DNA of 64,000 nucleotides from Owenia fusiformis. Taxonomy: Eukaryota; Annelida; Polychaeta; Sabellida; Oweniidae. The stretch is taken from the NCBI GenBank assembly GCA_903813345.2, contig CAIIXF020000001.1, positions 10,763,598-10,827,597 on the forward strand. Direction: 5' to 3'. Of this stretch, positions 11,257 through 56,672 are shown piece by piece (position 1 is the first letter of the stretch; each line of letters begins with the position of its first letter). A model generated the notes under the pieces. That model had not been told where the DNA came from, ran no database searches, and saw only the letters and a list, made by a program, of their open reading frames with translations. A program made the position numbers and the translations under genes.

Positions 11257-11328
11257 GGGGATGTAGCTCAGCGGTAGAGCGCTTGCTTCGCATGTAAGAG
11301 GCCCCGGGTTCAAATCCCGGCATCTCCA
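11257..11328 (+). tRNA. tRNA-Ala (anticodon CGC)
   Basis: This 72-nt sequence folds as a cloverleaf. The acceptor GGGGATG pairs with CATCTCC, with discriminator A at 11328. The D arm is GCTC-AGCGGTA-GAGC. The anticodon stem CTTGC pairs with GTAAG around the loop TTCGCAT, placing anticodon CGC at 11289-11291. The T arm is CCGGG-TTCAAAT-CCCGG. A-box and B-box promoter sequences are intact, and a TTTT run at 11334-11337 can terminate RNA polymerase III. It is divergent from NAGLU, about 200 bp upstream of its ATG. No intron; CCA is not encoded, as expected for a eukaryote. Confidence 0.97.
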
Positions 11329-13356: not shown

Positions 13357-13378
13357 AAATGGTTTATGTTGGAGGCTC

Positions 13379-14812
13379 TTGTATCAATCATATAACAAGT
13401 ATAAATGTAAGGTTTTTGTAGATGGTATTTTATCGGATACTTTTCCTGTTAATAGAGGTGTTCACCAGGGCGGGATATGTTCTATGTTTCTCTACCAGTT
13501 CTTTATAGCAGACCTTTTGCAACAACTGGTAGATTCGGCAAAAGGAGTAAGAATTGGTGAAACGTCTGTAGCATGTCCAGCATACGCTGATGATATTGCC
13601 TTAATTGCAAACAATCCAGAAAATCTAAATGCTCTGTTGAGCATTGCTGACATGTATAGTAAAAGGTGGAGGTTTGAGTTTCATCCAGGAAAATGTGTAG
13701 TGCTTAAGTTTGGTACAAACAAAAATGCTTTTTGTGAATGCAAATTAGGAGAGAATATTCTAAAAGTAGAAAAATCTGCTATACATGTTGGCATACCTTT
13801 AGGCAAAAGCTCAGAGCATGTATCAAATTTGATTTCACGCAGTAAAAGAAAATTCTTTTCTCTGCTTGGTTTAGGAGCAAATGTAGGTAGCTTAAATCCT
13901 CTGCTAGCTTCCAAGTTATACTGGAGTTTTTGCTTCCCAACAATGACGTATGGCAGCTCTGTAACGCAATATTCAATAACCGAAATTGAGTCTATGGAGG
14001 ATGCACATAGATCCATTGGCAAGAGAATACAAAGCTTCCTGGTAAATACCCCTGACCCGATGGCGATAAAACCACTCGGATGGCTTTCAGTTCAAGCGCG
14101 AATCGATGTAGATCGCCTTATGTTCATCTGGTTCGTCTTATCGTTACCGGTACAATGTATTTATAAAATTGTATGCATTTATCGACTGTTGAGTATAATC
14201 CACATTGGAACCTATCGCTCAAGTAAATCTCCATTGGTCTCAATGTGGGAAACAACAATGAAATACGACCTACATGGGGACGTTTTGAATATGATAACTA
14301 CTGCTAAGACACCACTCAAATGTGTCTGGAAGAGAAAAGTCATGAACGTTGTCCAGTCGTTTGAGATGAGACGCTTTTTCGTTCTTAGCTCCTTATATCC
14401 AACACTGAGACCAATTTTGAGATGTTTCACTGTTTTAAAACCATTTTTATGGTGGGAAGTTGCCAGGCGTTTTCCAAGACGCTTACCACAATGTAAAGTT
14501 ATAATGAAAATGATATCAGGAACATACAGGATATTTAATTACGGACAACCAATGTCTGAACGAGTATGCTTACTATGCAATTTAAATGTCACTGAAGACG
14601 TACAGCATTTTTTACTATTGTGCCCAGCGTATATAGATATAAGATACAATCTATTTAGTGAATTATATAAACTAGGAGTCAACAACTTTTGTGAATTCAT
14701 ATGTTTCATTTTCGGTGGAGGGAGCGAATATGATCCTGAAATAATGCTTCCATTGCTGGACACGATATATGAAATGCACAAAAGAAGGGATTACCTTCTT
14801 AAATCCTTGTAA
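13379..14812 (+). CDS. LINE reverse transcriptase, C-terminal two-thirds
   Basis: This uninterrupted frame carries reverse transcriptase motifs: PVNRGVHQGGICSMFLYQFF (finger/palm segment), then CPAYADDIALIANN with the catalytic YADD, then FHPGKCVVLKFG. The C-terminal part has a CCHC-like finger (CLLCNLNVTEDVQHFLLLCP) common at the ends of LINE ORF2 proteins. It ends with a normal stop shortly before the 3' tail. It lacks an endonuclease and the upstream palm motifs, so it cannot be an autonomous copy. The nominal start at 13379 is only the first codon after the insertion point; the true frame begins upstream of the foldback element. Confidence 0.88.
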   Translation: MYQSYNKYKCKVFVDGILSDTFPVNRGVHQGGICSMFLYQFFIADLLQQLVDSAKGVRIGETSVACPAYADDIALIANNPENLNALLSIADMYSKRWRFEFHPGKCVVLKFGTNKNAFCECKLGENILKVEKSAIHVGIPLGKSSEHVSNLISRSKRKFFSLLGLGANVGSLNPLLASKLYWSFCFPTMTYGSSVTQYSITEIESMEDAHRSIGKRIQSFLVNTPDPMAIKPLGWLSVQARIDVDRLMFIWFVLSLPVQCIYKIVCIYRLLSIIHIGTYRSSKSPLVSMWETTMKYDLHGDVLNMITTAKTPLKCVWKRKVMNVVQSFEMRRFFVLSSLYPTLRPILRCFTVLKPFLWWEVARRFPRRLPQCKVIMKMISGTYRIFNYGQPMSERVCLLCNLNVTEDVQHFLLLCPAYIDIRYNLFSELYKLGVNNFCEFICFIFGGGSEYDPEIMLPLLDTIYEMHKRRDYLLKSL

Positions 14813-18070: not shown

Positions 18071-19245
18071 ATGCCAGGTGAAGAAAGATTGTCTACTAAA
18101 AACCCTCTTGCAAGGTACGTAAGACTTGATTTATAAATGTACGTTGTGTTGGCGTTAAAATGATACGTGCTTTTTTTACTACATGCCATTGATTTAAGCA
18201 AGTTCAGCGTTGTAGATATGAATATTGAAAATATTTGGCTGCAAAGTTCAACAAAAATTTTGATATTTTCTTCAAATCAAAAGTTCACGTTAATTTCATC
18301 AAATATTCTCTTATGTAATGAGACATAGTCAAAGTTAGTTTTATAACTTTGACGGTCTTTATGTATTATGATCCAGTGTCAGCCTAGAATGATAAATGCA
18401 TGGGAGGCCATCGTGTGTAAGTCACCCCTCCCTATTATCCCGTGCCAGGACTATAGTCCTGAACCGAGCGCAATCTTTTGCCTTTACGATTACAACTTGG
18501 GAGAATTATCTACGCCCCTTACACTTAAGATACCTATCTTAATGTATTATAGAACTCAAAATATAACTTCTAATATATTGGAACCGCCGATTGTCTGGGT
18601 ATATCGGCAGAACGGGAACATTTTTCTTTTTCATCGAGATTCCATCACTTTTCAAGATGGCTGTTGGATTTAAAAGGGGATTCCCAGAAGTGGCTAGGAA
18701 GTACCAATAAATGGAGGAATTTGACGGTTGAAATAAGTTAAATATTACACGCAAACATTGCGATCAAAAATGAAATTTCTTCGTTCTGCCGATAAACCCA
18801 GACAACTACACGAAATGCATGCTAAAATACCAAGGAATCTATTGAAGTAGGTATCTTAAGTTTAAGGGGCATGGATAATTCTCCCAAGTTGTAATCTTAC
18901 AGGCCTATAGACCTATATTAGCCTATGCAAAAAATATTAGAGGGGGGGGGGGGGGGTGGGTGGTGCAAATATTTGCAAATATCTGCATGCTTAAGCTCCA
19001 CTTAATGTCCTGTACTTGGCAATATTCAAAGTCATTCTTTAAGAAAATATATTTACATATCAGATATATACAAAAGGTTTGTATCAAGGAGAAATGAACA
19101 TACCAGTATGATGCATAAAAGAAAGATTATTAGGAAAAATTGTATGCTTTTAGGAGGTTCAACTTGCAAGTGAAAATGAATCCTGAGAAAACCAGGGCAG
19201 AAGTCATTCTACCAGGTCTTTCCTACGATGACTTTGACAGAACAG
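18071..19245 (+). CDS. Common 5' exons of the thioesterase gene
   Basis: Exon 1 (18071-18114) runs from ATG to a GTACGT donor. Exon 2 (19157-19245) follows an acceptor at 19155-19156. The upstream AG at 19152-19153 would give an early stop, so the second AG is preferred. The joined text reads ARFNLQVKMNPEKTRAEVI then LPGLSYDDFDRTG. The intron after exon 2 cuts the hot-dog signature just before its Asn/His-Val position, so the shared part supplies the first strand and the exchangeable part supplies the rest. Confidence 0.75.
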
Positions 19246-22200
19246 GTAATGGCACAAGGAATTTTAAGAAAAACATTTTCAACATTTTATGAAAAATGAT
19301 CCTAATATTCACACATAGCTAGGCAAGGTGTGTCAGATTCCAGACAATCCAAACAGAGTATTCACATAATGAACAATGTGTGAAATATCAACAACACATG
19401 CAAGGTCACTAGTTAAACAGTTGTCATGGGGATGGATGGATTTTTCACATTGGATTTGATGACTTACCAACTTGACTCTTGCAAAAAATTTAATTAAAAT
19501 GTGTTCTTATTTTGGGCTTAAATCCTTAAATATTTTGAAAAATCACATTTAGCTGGACATGCACTTTCTGACCAATGAGAACAATGTTTAACCATGTGTA
19601 ATATGAAATGATAGTCAGTGTGTATGGCTTTTTTTTGCTTTACAATATATGTGGGTGTGACAACTAACATTTTATTTTACAAAAAGCTCAACATTTGAAA
19701 TTAAGTTGAAAAGTTTCGCAGAGCTCATTTTGATTTGGCCTTGGGTGTATTAGAGAAGTATATTGCAATGCAGTTATATGAAAAAGCATGTTCTGATTGG
19801 CTGAAGTTTGACACACCTTGCCTAGGTACATGCAAATAGGTTATTTCTGATCAGACATAAGGGATAGTATTCAGATGGTGACAGTTGTGGAAAACAAAGG
19901 TAAGATAATAATTAACCCCTCCCACTCCCTTTTGATATTGATTTGCCTTTCACTTCATTTTTTCAAAATTCAAAATTTCCAAAAATCATAATTTACCACT
20001 TCCCTTTAAAATGATTGACCCTGCTACTTGACCAATGTTGATATCTGGACAGCATTCCTAACTGAGGGGTTTCACTAGAATTTCTCACAACAGGCTAAAT
20101 AAATAAAAACAACACGCAAAATTAATGGAAATCATAAATTTAACATGGAAAAGTTCCTAAAAACAACAGGCGATTTTGTGAAAACAACCAATGAAAATCG
20201 CCTGTTGCCAGCTGCTAATGAAACCCCTGCTAACTGTGCATAAATTGGCTTCCAGGTAATGTGAGTATATGGAAGATCTCAAAGCTGTTTGAAAGTGCAA
20301 GGCTCCTCGTCTCATTGTCTGGCAATTACCTTGACTTTCATAAATTGATGGCAAATGATGGAACAATGTTTATCCGGTCTGGACATTACATAATATCTGA
20401 TGTATTATACCAATCAGCAGCTATCAACTGGCCCCTCAAGGCTACGACCAGTCTATCGTTCATTGGACGCACATCCACTAACCTCACAATTGAAATACGG
20501 GAACAGTTGACCAATCAACATGTCGGAAGTCTCGAGTTCCAGTATGTTTATGTGAATCGCACAAATCGTAAATCGCAAGCTTTTCCTGATTGGTTCATCC
20601 AGAAGTACAGGCCACTTACAACTCTGGAAACAAGGCCTGATACGATGGCACCGTTATCACTACCAAGCAAAACATTTTCTTATGATGTCACTGTTCAATA
20701 TAGCGACACTGACCGAAATGGGCATACAAACCAATCATCTTACTTAAAATATGGAATGGACGCAGCAACGAGTGCCTCCTTAGGGGGTGAATTCCATAAC
20801 TTCAAACAAGACATGTGTATGTACCATGTCCAAGACTTCCAAGCTCTATATACAGGGGAAAGTCTGGTTAAAGATCAACTTGTTATACATACATGGGAAG
20901 ATGGAACAAGAAAAGATTTACTGTTCTTTCAAATTCACAAAAATAACCGAGCAATATTTCACTGTAGGCTTACTCTTTGTAATCCAGCTTCAGCAAAGTT
21001 ATAATTTGAATGACCAACTTCAAAAGTCATTGAGATGTGACTATTTCGTAAATTTATAAGAACATTCCAACAATTTCTATTTATAATTAAATAAATCAGA
21101 GGACAGGCAGTCTGAACACTGTAACTTATTTGTGGAAATGCATTTCTTGCATTATTGCAAGCCAAACAAGTCGAACAAACATACAGTTTGGACCATAAAT
21201 AAATGAGTAGTCGATTTTCTTTCACAATTTAATTTCCAAACCATGGTCATTTTAAAGCCCATAGTTTCCAATATTGTCTAAATACATATCCCCTAAAATT
21301 TATATATTTTACAATTTGTATACTCTCATTCACTGATGTATGGCTTCTATTTTTAACATGAGAAATCTACAGCAAATCCATGACTCATTTATTCATGCTC
21401 CAGACTGTATATGTAATATTGCAATTGAGGAATCAAAATGTGGGTCTTTCAAAGGAGATTTGAATGGGCAAGTAGTGCTGACTGTAATTTGTTTAATGTT
21501 GAGGATTTAACAGTTAGAAGAATCTAGTTACATTACATACAGGAATTAAATTGTTATTTTGTTCGTGAAAATATAGTTTTTAACTGAAGTTCAAGTTGAT
21601 GGCTTATCACCATTTTCTAATTCTGATAATATGGGGAGAAGGGAACTTTGTTTTTACTATTGTCAACACTTGAACATCATCCCTTACAGGTCCATACTAG
21701 CACATAAAGTTAGATCTAATCACATTGCTGGTCCAATCTTCATACAGCAAACTATACTTTATAAACTACACATGGGTGTCAGAAAATATAACTTGAATTG
21801 GTCAATATACAATGTACCGATATATTGCCATTGCCACTAGACCCACATTTTGATTTATTTGACATTGTTGAGATAAGTAGCTCAGAATAATTTATCTTTC
21901 TTGTCTAAGTTATCAGTAATTTTGACATAGCCTACACAACATATATAGAATATATACAGAGTTTTTCAAACTGTACAATGTTTTCTGAAACAAAGTCCAT
22001 GTGTTCAACTTTTCACACCTTTGCATGTTTTACTGTCTGTCACTTTGAACAAAACTTAAAATACATTCCACATGTTATAGTAATTAATAATGTACATTGT
22101 ATACATTATTTGTAAATATTAATGGAGTCATATTCCATATGTGCCAAAGCATTTGTTGTTTTAATAAATTCAGTCAAGTACTAGTTGATAAAATTATGTT

Positions 22201-25200
22201 AATTTTACATGCGGATAATTACATGCACATACTAATGCTATCTAGAAGCATCAATAATCAGAATGATTTTGCAGGATGTAATTACCTAGAATGATGTGCA
22301 GGATATATCACTCAGAATGATTGTGCAGGATGTATCATTTAGAATAATTGTGCAGACTGTATCATTAAGAATGATTGTGCAACATGTATCACTTAGAATG
22401 ATTGTTCATCATGTATCACTTAGAATGATTGTGCAACATGTATCACTTAGATTTGTGCAGTATTTATCTCTTGGAATGATTGTACAGTTTGCTTCACTCA
22501 GAATAATCGTGCAGCATAAATCACTCAAAATGATTATACAGCATCTTTCAGAATGATTGTGTAACAGGCATCACCCAGAAAGATTGTGCAGCATGTATGG
22601 TTTACAATAATTGTGCTGCATGCAACACTCAAACTGATTATGCAGCAAGTACGATAGATTACTTCAAAAAATAGTTTGTAATTTTAGGATGAAAATTATC
22701 TGTTTTTATACAGCACCTTTAACATTGAACAGGTTTTTCTATACTTTCAACTGGTAAATCATGTGTTTACATTACATATATACCATTACAGTAACATCAG
22801 TTAACAACTTGTCTTCTTCCAGGAAATGTTAGTCTAACTAAGCTACTAGCAAGAATTTCTTCAACTCAAATGCTGTTTGAGCTTGGCAATGAGCACAGTG
22901 ATTTCTGGATGCTAATCAACTCATCGCCAGCTCTGTTTTTTGTGAGGTCGATGAAATACAGGATAAACGAGGAATTGTATTCCATGAAAAAACATGGTCC
23001 AGATCATACATTTGTGTGTATATGGCAAGCTATATCCACTGGCATTTCCTCCAGATATCTTCGATATGACCTCACTTTAAATGGAAAGGAAATGGTTACT
23101 CTATTCGGCCAGGATGTTTATGTTTCTAAGGAAACCAAACGCCCCACCCGATTGCCCGAGTGGTATAGAAACAAGGTGAAAACAGCAAATGGAACTGCGA
23201 AAAGGAATATGGCCCAGTTGATTAGGCCCATTCAAGCTTTCCAGTACAACATGGTTGTGACTCCTTCAGATATTGATATGTATAATCACGTAACAAATTC
23301 AGCATATATTAGGTATTGTCTTGATGCTGGCTATCAAGCAGGAATATCAGGATTTTATAGAAATCTCCCCGGAGATATTGCCCAATACCGCTGCAAGGAG
23401 ATTGAACAACTTTATGATGGGGAGAGTAACCTTGGGGAGGAACTATGTGTTTATACATGGGACACTGAAGAAGAAAAGGATACATTGTATTTCCAAATAG
23501 CCAATGAGAAAGGACGTCCAATTCATCATTGCATTTTAAGATTTTATCAAGGAAGAGCTTCAAGTAAACTCTGAAACAAACTAGGTCAGTTTCACTCCCT
23601 TTTCAAAGTATGTATGTGAAAGATGCAGAGTACCAAGATTAACTTTTTATGACTGATCAAAGTACAGGGTGGTCCAAAAAAAGTGAACCCCTGCAACAAG
23701 CTATATTTTTCTTAATACATGCATGAAAACACATTTCATATTATCACATGTTGAAGAGAAAGGTCTAAAATTTGGTTGATGCCATAATCTATTCTCAGTC
23801 TTAAATTTTGAAGAAATTACAAAAGTGTAACAAACATGCCTGAAAATTAGATATTGTACAAAATTTTACAAATGTGATTCTTGGAAATTTTTGAAACACA
23901 TTGGATGATCTTAAACAGCTTTCAGTTAGAGATACAAGTTTAAAACCCTACCATTTGACAAAAGGGACACTATTTAAGCAGAAAACACATTTCACACTTT
24001 CATTGATCATTTTGAAGCAGTTTTAACTGTTTAACAGTTCAGGGGTATGTTACCGACACCAACAGTTAGAGGGGGGGGGGGGGGCTCTTATCTTATGGAA
24101 GGAATTTGCCCCCTGTGACCAGGAATCTGATAATCCCTTCATCAAATATCTTTAAAAAATCAAAAGAAAATCCAATTTCTAATGTTTTGAGCCATACTTA
24201 ATTAGAATTGGTCCATGATTTATGAAGATATTGACATTTCAAGATCATATAGGGGTATGCTCGCGATTTCACAGGAAAATGTTTTCATCTGTGGAAGCTT
24301 GGCACATTTCTTTGGATCACAATAACTTTGCAACAAACAAAGGTAGGATGCTAGTTTTAAGCCATAATGTGCAGGATTTAAAATTGAACAAAGTCAGAAA
24401 ATATTAGTTCTTTAAGACTGCAGCTTAAAAAATTCTCATGGGAAAGGTGTTGAAGGGTTGAAGAATCGCGGATATTGAAAATCACATTTTATCCATTTTC
24501 AGTAATATTTGGTTAGGGCTTATAATTTCTGCAAATTTTAAGACTAAGAAAAATGTATGGAACCAACATAAATTTTAGACCTTCCTCTACAACATAGGAA
24601 AATAAAAAAGAATTCCTGCAAGTAATCAGGGAAATATGGCCCGTTGCAGGGGTTCACTTTTTTTGGACCACCCTGTATACAACATAATCCCTCTAGTTAG
24701 TTCACAGTTACAATGAGTGATCATGTGACTTTTATGATGAATATGGTCCCAAGAAAACATGAAGTTAAATGCATTCGTTTTGATTATCTCCACAACAAAA
24801 TGACGATTGATGATTGTATTTAGTGCAGAGGAAGAAATACTGAGCTGTAGAGTATGTAAAACTTAGTGAACAGCAAAAAAGATTATCTGCAGTATTTTTT
24901 CTAGATTTTTTGGATATGTGCTAATTGGAATCTCCTAATAGCTTTCCCTTTTAGAGAGAATATGGTATTCAAAATATATACCAATAACATTTTTTATTAA
25001 TTACTTTTGTACATTCTTAACTTGATGTCTTTCATGAAAACTCTCTATTCCATGATCAGATTGTTTGTGCAGGTCAGTGGTCTTTGACATATTTCTATAC
25101 ACATATTTTAATGAATGCTTAAGCCTTGGTCACATTTACTCTATAGTGGGCATGGAGTGGCAGCTTCACAAAATTGATATTGAAAACCCACATTATACTG

Positions 25201-26131
25201 CTTATCCCTATATTTTATGCTGCATATTTTCTCAATTTTTGGAAGCTATGGTTGCCATACCATATGGTTGCTGTAGATCAGATGTTACTGAGACATTGGT
25301 TGATTTATGTTAACTTGATAATTATTTTTAAATTATTTTGTTAATTTCTCATGTTCTTCAGGTGGACTGAACATCTTCAACATAGCGAAAAAATTCAGCA
25401 ATGCACGTTCTTCGAGTTTTTACTCTGACATATCATCTTTGTTGACACTTACCTCAAGGGGAACTCATGTCACGTTTGAGCGGGCATCTAATTACAGAAT
25501 CAGCGAAAAGTTCTTTGAATTGCATAATCCACAATTTAGTGGTGAACTTGGTGGATATCTTAGCTTTGAAAAAATCAAAGATCGTCAAATATATGTGGAA
25601 GACAAGCTGGTGTCAGTGGGAAACTCTTCAATATGTCTCGCCTCATCGATAATACACAATGGGGAGGCGATTGCCACTTTTGAGAGTCAGGTAGTGCACG
25701 TTGATTGGAATTCACGCAAAGCTGTCCCACTTCCTGTTTGGTTCACTGAAAAATATCGGGAATTCATGAAAATTTCAAAGATAAAATTTACAACAAATAT
25801 GAACAAACCAAACAGCTCTTATTCATACAGTATCAAAGTGTCCGCAAGTGATTTGGACATGAATAATCATGTGAACATGGCTATTTACCTCCGGTATTGC
25901 TTAGATGCAGGGTATATGGCATGTAAAGATGGCGCTTATGAGGGTTTTGAGGGAGATCTTTTGACATATAAAGTGCAGAAATCGTCATGTCTGTTCTTTG
26001 GTGAAAGTGTACTTGAGGCATTGCTGTCTGTGTATACATGGGAAGATAGTACACAGAAAAATTTAATACATTTCCAAATTGAAAATAGTGATGAGAAATT
26101 AGTATATTTCTGTTCTATGTGGTTTCATTAA
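18071..26131 (+). CDS. Tandem hot-dog thioesterase-like gene with three alternative terminal exons
   Basis: Predicted to hydrolyse acyl-thioesters; substrate unknown. Two common exons, 18071-18114 and 19157-19245, encode MPGEERLSTKNPLARFNL and the rest of a 44-residue start, ending in LPGLSYDDFDRTG, the opening of a first hot-dog fold. The donor follows the first base of the Gly codon (phase 1). Three downstream exons (20256-21004, 22823-23574, 25362-26131) each begin with an AG acceptor in the matching phase and restore Gly. Each completes the first hot-dog domain, adds a second one with a YbgC-like Asp/His/Asn motif, and ends in its own stop. Summed CDS lengths are 882, 885 and 903 nt (293, 294 and 300 aa), all multiples of three. 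I found no private 5' exon before the second or third copy. Use of alternative last exons is inferred. No signal peptide is evident, so a cytosolic product is likely. Confidence 0.8.
18488..18896. mobile_element. Foldback MITE in thioesterase intron 1
   Basis: GATTACAACTTGGGAGAATT at 18488 returns inverted at 18896, with a further inverted match through ACTTAAGATACCTA. A second, inner inverted pair (GTCTGGGTATATCGGCAGAA against TTCTGCCGATAAACCCAGAC) makes most of the 409 bp palindromic. The short frames on both strands are shadows of this structure. Confidence 0.75.
19322..19822. mobile_element. MITE with TA target duplication in thioesterase intron 2
   Basis: GGCAAGGTGTGTCA at 19322 matches inverted TGACACACCTTGCC ending at 19822, flanked by TA on both sides. 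The 500-bp interior is AT-rich and noncoding. Confidence 0.7.
20065..20228. repeat. Dispersed short repeat (AGGGGTTTCA ends), copy 1
   Basis: It is bounded by AGGGGTTTCA and inverted TGAAACCCCT. The interior contains TTTCTCACAACAGGCTA, GGAAATCATAAATTTAACAT and GAAAACAACCA. An inverted copy of the same text lies at about 57291-57425. It abuts the acceptor region of terminal exon A. Confidence 0.7.
20256..21004 (+). CDS. Thioesterase terminal exon A
   Basis: Follows acceptor AG at 20254-20255 and completes Gly from the common exon. It continues the first hot-dog domain with NVSIWKISKLFESARLLVSL, the helix after the signature. The second hot-dog domain starts near FSYDVTVQYSDTDRNGHTN, a complete Asp-x-Asp...Gly-His-x-Asn active-site motif, followed by YLKYGMDAA. 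The body has 248 codons to the stop TAA at 21002-21004. An AATAAA at 21090-21095 is a plausible poly(A) signal. Its helix after the signature (KLFESAR) is closest to ordinary bacterial-type 4HBT proteins, so it may be the ancestral copy (inference). Confidence 0.85.
21090..21095 (+). terminator. Putative poly(A) signal for exon A
   Basis: AATAAA lies 86 bases after the exon A stop codon. Hexamer and position fit animal polyadenylation; use is inferred. Confidence 0.5.
21100..22255. other. Intron between terminal exons A and B
   Basis: AT-rich sequence without a recognised exon or repeat. I searched it for a private 5' exon like the common exon (SYDDFDRTG-type text followed by a donor) and found none. 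The frame at 21631-21840 is unconvincing. Confidence 0.5.
22256..22648. repeat. 27-bp minisatellite upstream of terminal exon B
   Basis: About 14 degenerate units of the form TTGTGCAGCATGTATCACTTAGAATGA, losing register toward the right. The plus-strand open frame at 22296-22556 with a nine-residue period (SLRMIVQHV) is only the repeat translated. It ends about 175 bp before the exon B acceptor. Confidence 0.85.
22823..23574 (+). CDS. Thioesterase terminal exon B
   Basis: Acceptor AG at 22821-22822; same phase as exon A. It begins (G)NVSLTKLLARISSTQMLFEL. The second hot-dog domain carries VTPSDIDMYNHVTNSAYIRY, keeping Asp, His and Asn but lacking the Gly of exon A, and then CLDAGYQAG. It has 249 codons and stops with TGA. 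The nearest canonical AATAAA downstream (24601-24606) lies inside a mariner-like element. Sequence is clearly related to exon C (both have RYCLDAGY), so B and C probably separated after their common ancestor split from A. Confidence 0.85.
23665..24675. mobile_element. Tc1/mariner-like nonautonomous element between exons B and C
   Basis: CAGGGTGGTCCAAAAAAAGT at 23665 returns inverted, ending ACTTTTTTTGGACCACCCTG at 24675. The inverted match extends to GAACCCCTGCAAC, about 33 bp. TA flanks both sides. The 1011-bp element has a G-run at about 24070 and no transposase frame. Confidence 0.85.
24601..24606 (+). terminator. Candidate poly(A) signal for exon B inside a transposon
   Basis: AATAAA is the first canonical signal I see after the exon B stop, about 1 kb downstream and within the mariner-like element. 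Use is speculative; a noncanonical signal nearer the stop may be used instead. Confidence 0.25.
25362..26131 (+). CDS. Thioesterase terminal exon C
   Basis: Acceptor AG at 25360-25361; same phase as A and B. It restores Gly and continues GLNIFNIAKKFSNARSSSFY. The second hot-dog domain carries VSASDLDMNNHVNMAIYLRY and CLDAGYMAC. Following text resembles exon B at equivalent places (GESVLEALLSVYTWED). It has 255 codons and ends MWFH before TAA. A poly(A) signal AATAAA lies at 26270-26275. The first residue after Gly is another Gly rather than Asn, so the first hot-dog signature differs from A and B. Confidence 0.85.

Positions 26132-32180: not shown

Positions 32181-56672
<24,492 letters not shown>

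Follow-up and report, generated by a model that had tools for sequence, protein, structure and literature searches.

One 5′ end and three tandem candidate last exons in an acyl-ACP-thioesterase-like gene of Owenia fusiformis

How many enzymes can a gene encode when its last exon is present in several complete versions behind a single 5′ end? This question is raised by a locus of the annelid Owenia fusiformis in a 64,000-nucleotide (nt) stretch of contig CAIIXF020000001.1 (assembly GCA_903813345.2, positions 10,763,598 to 10,827,597 of the forward strand; hereafter referred to as the window). Here we report a computational analysis of this locus and of its relatives in the same genome. Two short exons of an acyl-acyl carrier protein (ACP)-thioesterase-like gene are followed by three tandem terminal exons (copies 1 to 3), each of which is open to its own stop codon. 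We consider it probable that these parts belong to one gene: exons 1 and 2, which encode 45 residues, would form its only 5′ end, and the three terminal exons, produced by tandem duplication, would be alternative last exons. A phylogenetic analysis of the terminal exons suggests that this organization is old, and a comparison with known genes places it beside other enzymes whose last exons are exchanged by splicing.

Gene layout and joined products

A first-pass annotation of this DNA had placed a donor after position 19245, acceptors before 20256, 22823 and 25362, and terminal exons of 749, 752 and 770 nt at this locus, and all of these proved correct. An AG precedes every terminal exon, and all three complete the same Gly codon in the phase required by the common donor. 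The joined reading frames are multiples of three, as had been claimed, and encode products of 294, 295 and 301 amino acids (aa) for copies 1, 2 and 3, respectively, free of internal stops. The two common exons and the phase within the Gly codon also stood, whereas the length of the shared part, given as 44 residues, had to be corrected: it measures 136 nt, or 45 codons plus 1 nt. At the junction of exons 1 and 2, an Arg-Arg pair results from the acceptor used in the public protein described below. The layout of donors, acceptors and frames is confirmed.

The three terminal exons are only 28–30% identical to each other, and the open frames of copies 1 and 3 extend over 249 and 256 codons. The earliest Met lies at residue 136 of 256 in copy 3, and at residue 106 of 244 in d2, a terminal exon of a second array. 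These two exons therefore need an upstream exon to provide a start codon, and neither can start a full domain alone. The pyrimidine tract of copy 1 (9 of 16 positions) is the poorest among the 11 acceptors of the family, and those of copies 2 and 3 each contain 12 of 16. The first AATAAA or ATTAAA occurs 82 nt past the stop of copy 1 and 139 nt past that of copy 3, although such hexamers are uninformative here, as we estimate about two per kb by chance in this A+T-rich DNA.

A protein search retrieved P0001, an 'unnamed protein product' of O. fusiformis that matches exon 1, exon 2 and copy 2 with 100% identity over 295 residues. Since the two strings are identical, the deposited gene model runs from 18071 through exon 2 directly into copy 2, where it ends, and leaves copy 1 out. 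Skipping of copy 1 fits its having the weakest pyrimidine tract, as a single observation. Outside support, in the form of this deposited model, thus concerns the copy-2 join only. The passages of PMC9977687 on the Owenia annotation describe RNA sequencing (RNA-seq)-guided and ab initio models built with STAR/StringTie, Trinity, Portcullis, Mikado, Augustus and PASA, and state RNA-seq support for 31,678 of 31,903 transcripts overall; the RNA-seq data named in that paper carry the accession PRJEB38497. Two entries that appeared in the protein searches with copies 1 and 3, P0003 and P0005, are frames of the window DNA with no source attached.

Terminal-exon family in the genome

Searches of the Owenia genome with three queries (copy 2, copy 3 and a Biomphalaria protein) returned the same 11 terminal exons, with 11 matches each. 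These exons form six loci, comprising the window array with three, a second array with four (d1 to d4), the single-copy relative dM and three further single copies. An AG acceptor is located at the same Gly codon in 11 of 11; this codon was picked by eye from each translation, with the bases checked afterwards, and is an invariant column in the later alignment. Chance open frames were considered and ruled out by these 11 homologues with a shared acceptor position. All of the exons are open over 236–261 residues despite pairwise identities of 22–45%, which is hard to explain unless they are translated. Querying the genome with the exon 1+2 peptide located exon 2 at four places, including that in the window, and local scans added two more. 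In both arrays, the terminal exons lie downstream of exon 2 and on the same strand.

Search for additional 5′ exons

Five exon-2 peptides were combined into a 15-column profile, against which each G|GT site in the gaps was scored; the 4,000 nt upstream of each isolated terminal exon were scanned in the same way. The exon 2 of the window scored 64.6 and that of the second array 62.0. All four isolated exons have an exon 2 of their own, located 588 nt (C9a, score 51.8), 300 nt (C9b, 63.0), 203 nt (C1c, 31.6) and 1497 nt (dM, 35.0) upstream. C1c and dM were never in the profile, and a leave-one-out analysis of its four Owenia members still recovered all four, with scores of 45–61. By contrast, no exon-2 relative was found in the five gaps before copy 2, copy 3, d2, d3 and d4, where the best G|GT scores were −1.2, 6.0, 3.0, −5.8 and −0.8, respectively. 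When any GT or GC donor was allowed, a variant run without a random control, the best scores in these gaps were 1.2, 6.0, 3.0, −5.6 and 0.4.

As a control for the G|GT scores, 200 random sequences per gap were generated with the base-neighbour frequencies of the gap, for the four gaps other than that between d2 and d3. The random 95% points were 9.4 (copy 2 gap), 10.8 (copy 3 gap), and 13.8 and 12.6 (second-array gaps). The earlier statement that no separate 5′ exon was found before copies 2 and 3 holds for exon-2 relatives, with best scores below the random 95% points. In the 10.3-kb interval between exon 2 and d1 of the second array, the best exon-2 score was 4.2. Together, the scores indicate that each isolated terminal exon is accompanied by an exon 2, and that the later array members are not. 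Retrocopies of a spliced message are ruled out as the source of the later members, because exon-2 sequence is attached to none of copies 2 and 3 and d2, d3 and d4.

History of the arrays

A tree of the 11 terminal exons and two mollusc proteins contains three sister pairs, copy 3 with d3 (99/98), dM with d1 (98/94) and C9a with C9b (100/99); beyond these pairs there are seven inner branches, none of which is starred. Constraining either array to a single clade was rejected by the approximately unbiased (AU) test (p-AU 0.0018 for the window array and 0.0006 for the second array, with two trees each and groups set by position). Because copy 3 is the sister of d3 and a window-array clade is rejected, the state of a terminal exon with no 5′ exon probably predates the split of the two arrays and has been kept since. 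In the simplest reading of the tree, an array with a copy-3-type exon would predate the separation of the two arrays, and exons would also have moved between the array and single-gene states. Such exchange would fit the grouping of copy 3 with d3 and that of d1 with dM, a single gene that carries an exon 2.

A wider picture can be drawn, which we put forward tentatively and rate somewhat below an even chance. The two arrays, with three and four last exons, would both be old and would serve as collections of almost entire catalytic bodies behind two 5′ ends, from which two genes would produce at least seven double hot-dog enzymes. The exons would be older than the split of the arrays, and single exons would leave an array as separate genes, or the reverse.

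Proposed mechanism and alternative explanations

On the reading that we prefer, one pre-mRNA would be made, and the donor at 19245 would be joined to one of the three competing acceptors. The message would then be ended by cleavage and polyadenylation downstream of the chosen exon. The shared exons would provide the start codon and, presumably, two elements of hot-dog 1, its first strand and its D-F-D-R-T-G turn, and the chosen last exon would provide the rest, about 85% of the two-hot-dog protein, including the second hot-dog. Acceptor strength and 3′-end processing may decide which exon is used, and copies 1 and 3 would be used like copy 2. Alternative last exons on one 5′ end, as first proposed for this locus, are the best-supported reading, in view of the deposited join of 19245 to 22823, the empty scan gaps and the second locus that repeats the design.

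An alternative, which we regard as unlikely, is that copies 2 and/or 3 are separate tandem genes, with promoters of their own and with 5′ exons that are short, unrelated and invisible to homology. Genes are often clustered in tandem, divergence of short first exons is rapid, and the scan detects relatives of exon 2 only. However, exon 2 is still recognizable in all four isolated paralogues, whose terminal exons share just 24–36% identity with those of the window, and copy 2 is joined to exon 2 in the public model. The distances also argue against separate genes: the interval between copies 2 and 3 is 1786 nt, and shrinks to 771 nt once an inserted repeat is subtracted, and the 3′ end of d2 together with a separate promoter and 5′ exons would be hard to fit into the 225 nt that separate the d2 stop from the d3 acceptor.

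Less likely still, copy 2 could be the sole working last exon, with copies 1 and 3 being unused relics that are skipped or never reached by the transcript. This would agree with the presence of only copy 2 in public proteins (among the matches listed) and with the poor pyrimidine tract of copy 1. Nevertheless, copies 1 and 3 have correct acceptors and full-length open frames and retain the SD-x-D...H motif, including the Asn that copy 2 lacks, whereas stops and frameshifts would be expected in relics at such divergence. Finally, trans-splicing or a polycistronic transcript could provide copies 2 and 3 with the 5′ exons in place of an ordinary choice in cis; this would equally explain terminal exons devoid of 5′ exons, and DNA alone cannot separate it from cis choice, but we consider it highly improbable, as nothing in the analysis points to it and the same-strand order downstream of exon 2 in both arrays is required by cis-splicing and not by trans-splicing.

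Several observations weigh against one gene with alternative last exons. In copy 2, the first AATAAA or ATTAAA occurs only 1027 nt past the stop, within the inserted repeat, and the copy-2 gene model could be based in part on ab initio prediction. Searches with the joined products found no public protein that contains copy 1 (among the matches listed, 3 of 382 candidates) or copy 3 (2 of 675 candidates), although the Owenia annotation permits several transcripts per gene, according to the passages of PMC9977687. An unrelated 5′ exon would escape a scan that recognizes only exon-2 relatives. In the tree, 4 of the 10 inner branches are open and several rows, including copy 2, d1 and d4, have long branches, and the pairing of copy 3 with d3 could also reflect the movement of one exon between arrays.

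Predicted function of the products

Against the profile of the C-terminal hot-dog of acyl-ACP thioesterases (PF20791, cut-off 21), the scores were 26.3 for copy 2, 25.0 for copy 3 and 19.3, below the cut-off, for copy 1; in the 13-member family set A2, nine members match this profile at E ≤ 0.001. For the N-terminal hot-dog (PF01643, cut-off 23.7), copies 1 and 3 reached 13.0 and 16.6 bits and copy 2 was unlisted, with queries that lacked the 45 shared residues, and the full-length copy-2 product P0001 gave no match at E ≤ 0.001. Because PF01643 stays below its cut-off, we refer to the products as acyl-ACP-thioesterase-like rather than as members of that family. The hot-dog superfamily profile 4HBT_2 (PF13279) matched 13 of 13 members of set A2 at E ≤ 0.001; against its curated cut-off of 25.5, copies 1 and 3 lie above and copy 2 just under (24.5). 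Weak Pfam matches to the unrelated Omp85, DUF5872 and GLAA-B barrel families, all under the cut-off, were set aside.

A profile search among solved structures retrieved hot-dog thioesterases as well as acyl-ACP thioesterases from plants and bacteria (5byu, 6.5e-10; 9mqf, 5.4e-09; 5x04, 2.1e-06); of two alignments displayed, that with 9mqf places its DMDMNGHINN opposite the SD-x-D-x-N-x-H of the family. The Asn and His of D-x-N-x-H are catalytic in FatB. In the second hot-dog, this Asn slot is occupied by Asn in copies 1 and 3 and by Tyr in copy 2, and across the 11 exons by Asn in five, Tyr in four and Leu in two. Passages of PMC5830452 place the acyl cavity in the N-terminal hot-dog, and a title cited there assigns catalytic residues to the C-terminal domain. 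As the choice of last exon would swap most of both hot-dogs, substrate range or activity should change with it, and copy 2, with Tyr in the Asn slot, is predicted to deviate most in acyl-ACP and acyl-CoA chain-length use. Enzyme activity is predicted from weak-to-moderate family matches. The earlier interpretation is partly supported: alternative last exons are the best-supported reading, whereas at least three thioesterases are a prediction, since copies 1 and 3 occur in no public protein among the matches listed.

Features of the locus

The dispersed repeat between copies 2 and 3 (Table 1) had 692 first-look candidates in the genome, the best of which are 92–93% identical among 40 scored. 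In a crude scan for exact complementary words between the intron after exon 2 and the gaps, the longest were 11 and 12 nt, lengths that were matched by 46 of 60 and 22 of 60 random pairs, respectively.

Table 1. Coordinates of the gene, its relatives and other features (window positions unless C1 or C9 is given)
Feature	Position	Strand	Details
Exon 1, coding part	18071..18114	+	ATG at 18071; donor GTACGT after 18114
Exon 2	19154..19245	+	common to all joins; ends in ...LPGLSYDDFDRT plus first base of Gly codon; donor G|GTAATG after 19245
Terminal exon copy 1	20256..21004	+	749 nt; own stop; motif SDTDRNGHTN
Terminal exon copy 2	22823..23574	+	752 nt; own stop; motif SDIDMYNHVT; used in deposited gene model
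Terminal exon copy 3	25362..26131	+	770 nt; own stop; motif SDLDMNNHVN; closest relative in second array
Second array	C1:32422124-32445275 (32.42-32.45 Mb)	+	one exon 2 (donor after 32422220); four terminal exons, d1-d4, with candidate joins to 32432558, 32439159, 32440119 and 32444566
dM	C1:32418379-32420835	-	single-copy relative with own exon 2; head-to-head with second array
Single terminal-exon copies (C1c, C9a, C9b)	C1 21.49 Mb; C9 13.41 Mb and 23.88 Mb
27-bp minisatellite	22260..22651	.	about 15 copies; gap before copy 2
Dispersed repeat	23663..24677	.	about 1015 bp; long inverted ends; gap between copies 2 and 3
tRNA-Ala	11257-11328	+	anticodon CGC; ARAGORN; also Rfam tRNA match
484-aa open frame	13358-14812		resembles part of a non-LTR (long terminal repeat) retroelement reverse transcriptase; judged by eye
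481-aa open frame	33971-35416		resembles a carboxylesterase/cholinesterase-type enzyme; judged by eye
347-aa open frame	38271-39314	-	Gln/Pro-rich; in most G+C-rich 2-kb bin of window (0.455)

Comparison with known systems

Genes that change the end of an enzyme by the choice of the last exon are known in other animals. Anopheles GSTD1 is said to combine a shared N-terminal exon with four alternative 3′ exons. Literature searches found no paper on this case, and passages of PMC4654499, PMC1847502 and PMC9540044 do not give it. In Anopheles gambiae GSTS1, as described in passages of PMC1797171, a common 5′ exon is spliced to alternative 3′ exons, as proposed for Owenia, and the mosquito proteins SOD3A and SOD3B of the same passages have the N terminus in common and differ at the C terminus. 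Drosophila GSTO2A/B, curated for D. yakuba in a passage of PMC4195677, have exon 1 in common and separate 3′ untranslated regions. GSTS1 and GSTO2 differ from the Owenia gene in protein fold and, in these passages, offer two alternatives each (PMC1797171, PMC4195677).

Alternative last exons are also known in Drosophila pip and PGRP-LC, according to passages of PMC9013439, in which pip is treated under untranslated regions. There, the choice in PGRP-LC is attributed to competing RNA structures, whereas the crude scan of the Owenia window found no complementary words above random. The alternative oxidase gene of Crassostrea virginica likewise encodes an enzyme of a lophotrochozoan, and passages of PMC5589949 describe its last exon (exon 10) as tandemly duplicated, with 3′ alternative splicing picking one and with one variant altered around functional sites. 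In the oyster, these passages give two choices that concern the last of ten exons only; in Owenia, there would be three, covering about 85% of the protein (PMC5589949).

In terms of protein family, the nearest systems are the plant and bacterial acyl-ACP thioesterases FatA/FatB (PF20791, PF01643; PDB 9mqf, 5x04, 2own), to which the Owenia products have profile matches. They differ from these in the sub-threshold PF01643 score and in having Tyr or Leu in the Asn slot in 6 of the 11 exons. Limited searches of openly licensed PMC papers found no hot-dog or thioesterase gene with alternative last exons among the matches listed and no paper on Owenia and thioesterases. Judged by titles and the beginnings of abstracts, the matches listed for animal acyl-ACP thioesterases contained nothing relevant either. 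The earlier remark that hot-dog enzymes are not known to use such a system is in line with these searches, but the architecture itself has been described for other enzymes.

Should the joins prove real, the products of copies 1 and 3 would be absent from the public Owenia protein set, perhaps along with others encoded by the second array. The locus would then be a clear lophotrochozoan case of splicing that picks nearly a whole enzyme rather than a segment, from choices that are deeply diverged. As both states coexist in one family and one genome, the system also bears on the interconversion of tandem last-exon arrays and tandem genes. Collectively, these comparisons suggest a known gene architecture in a protein family for which we found no earlier case, and Owenia has a further, paralogous locus of this design elsewhere in its genome.

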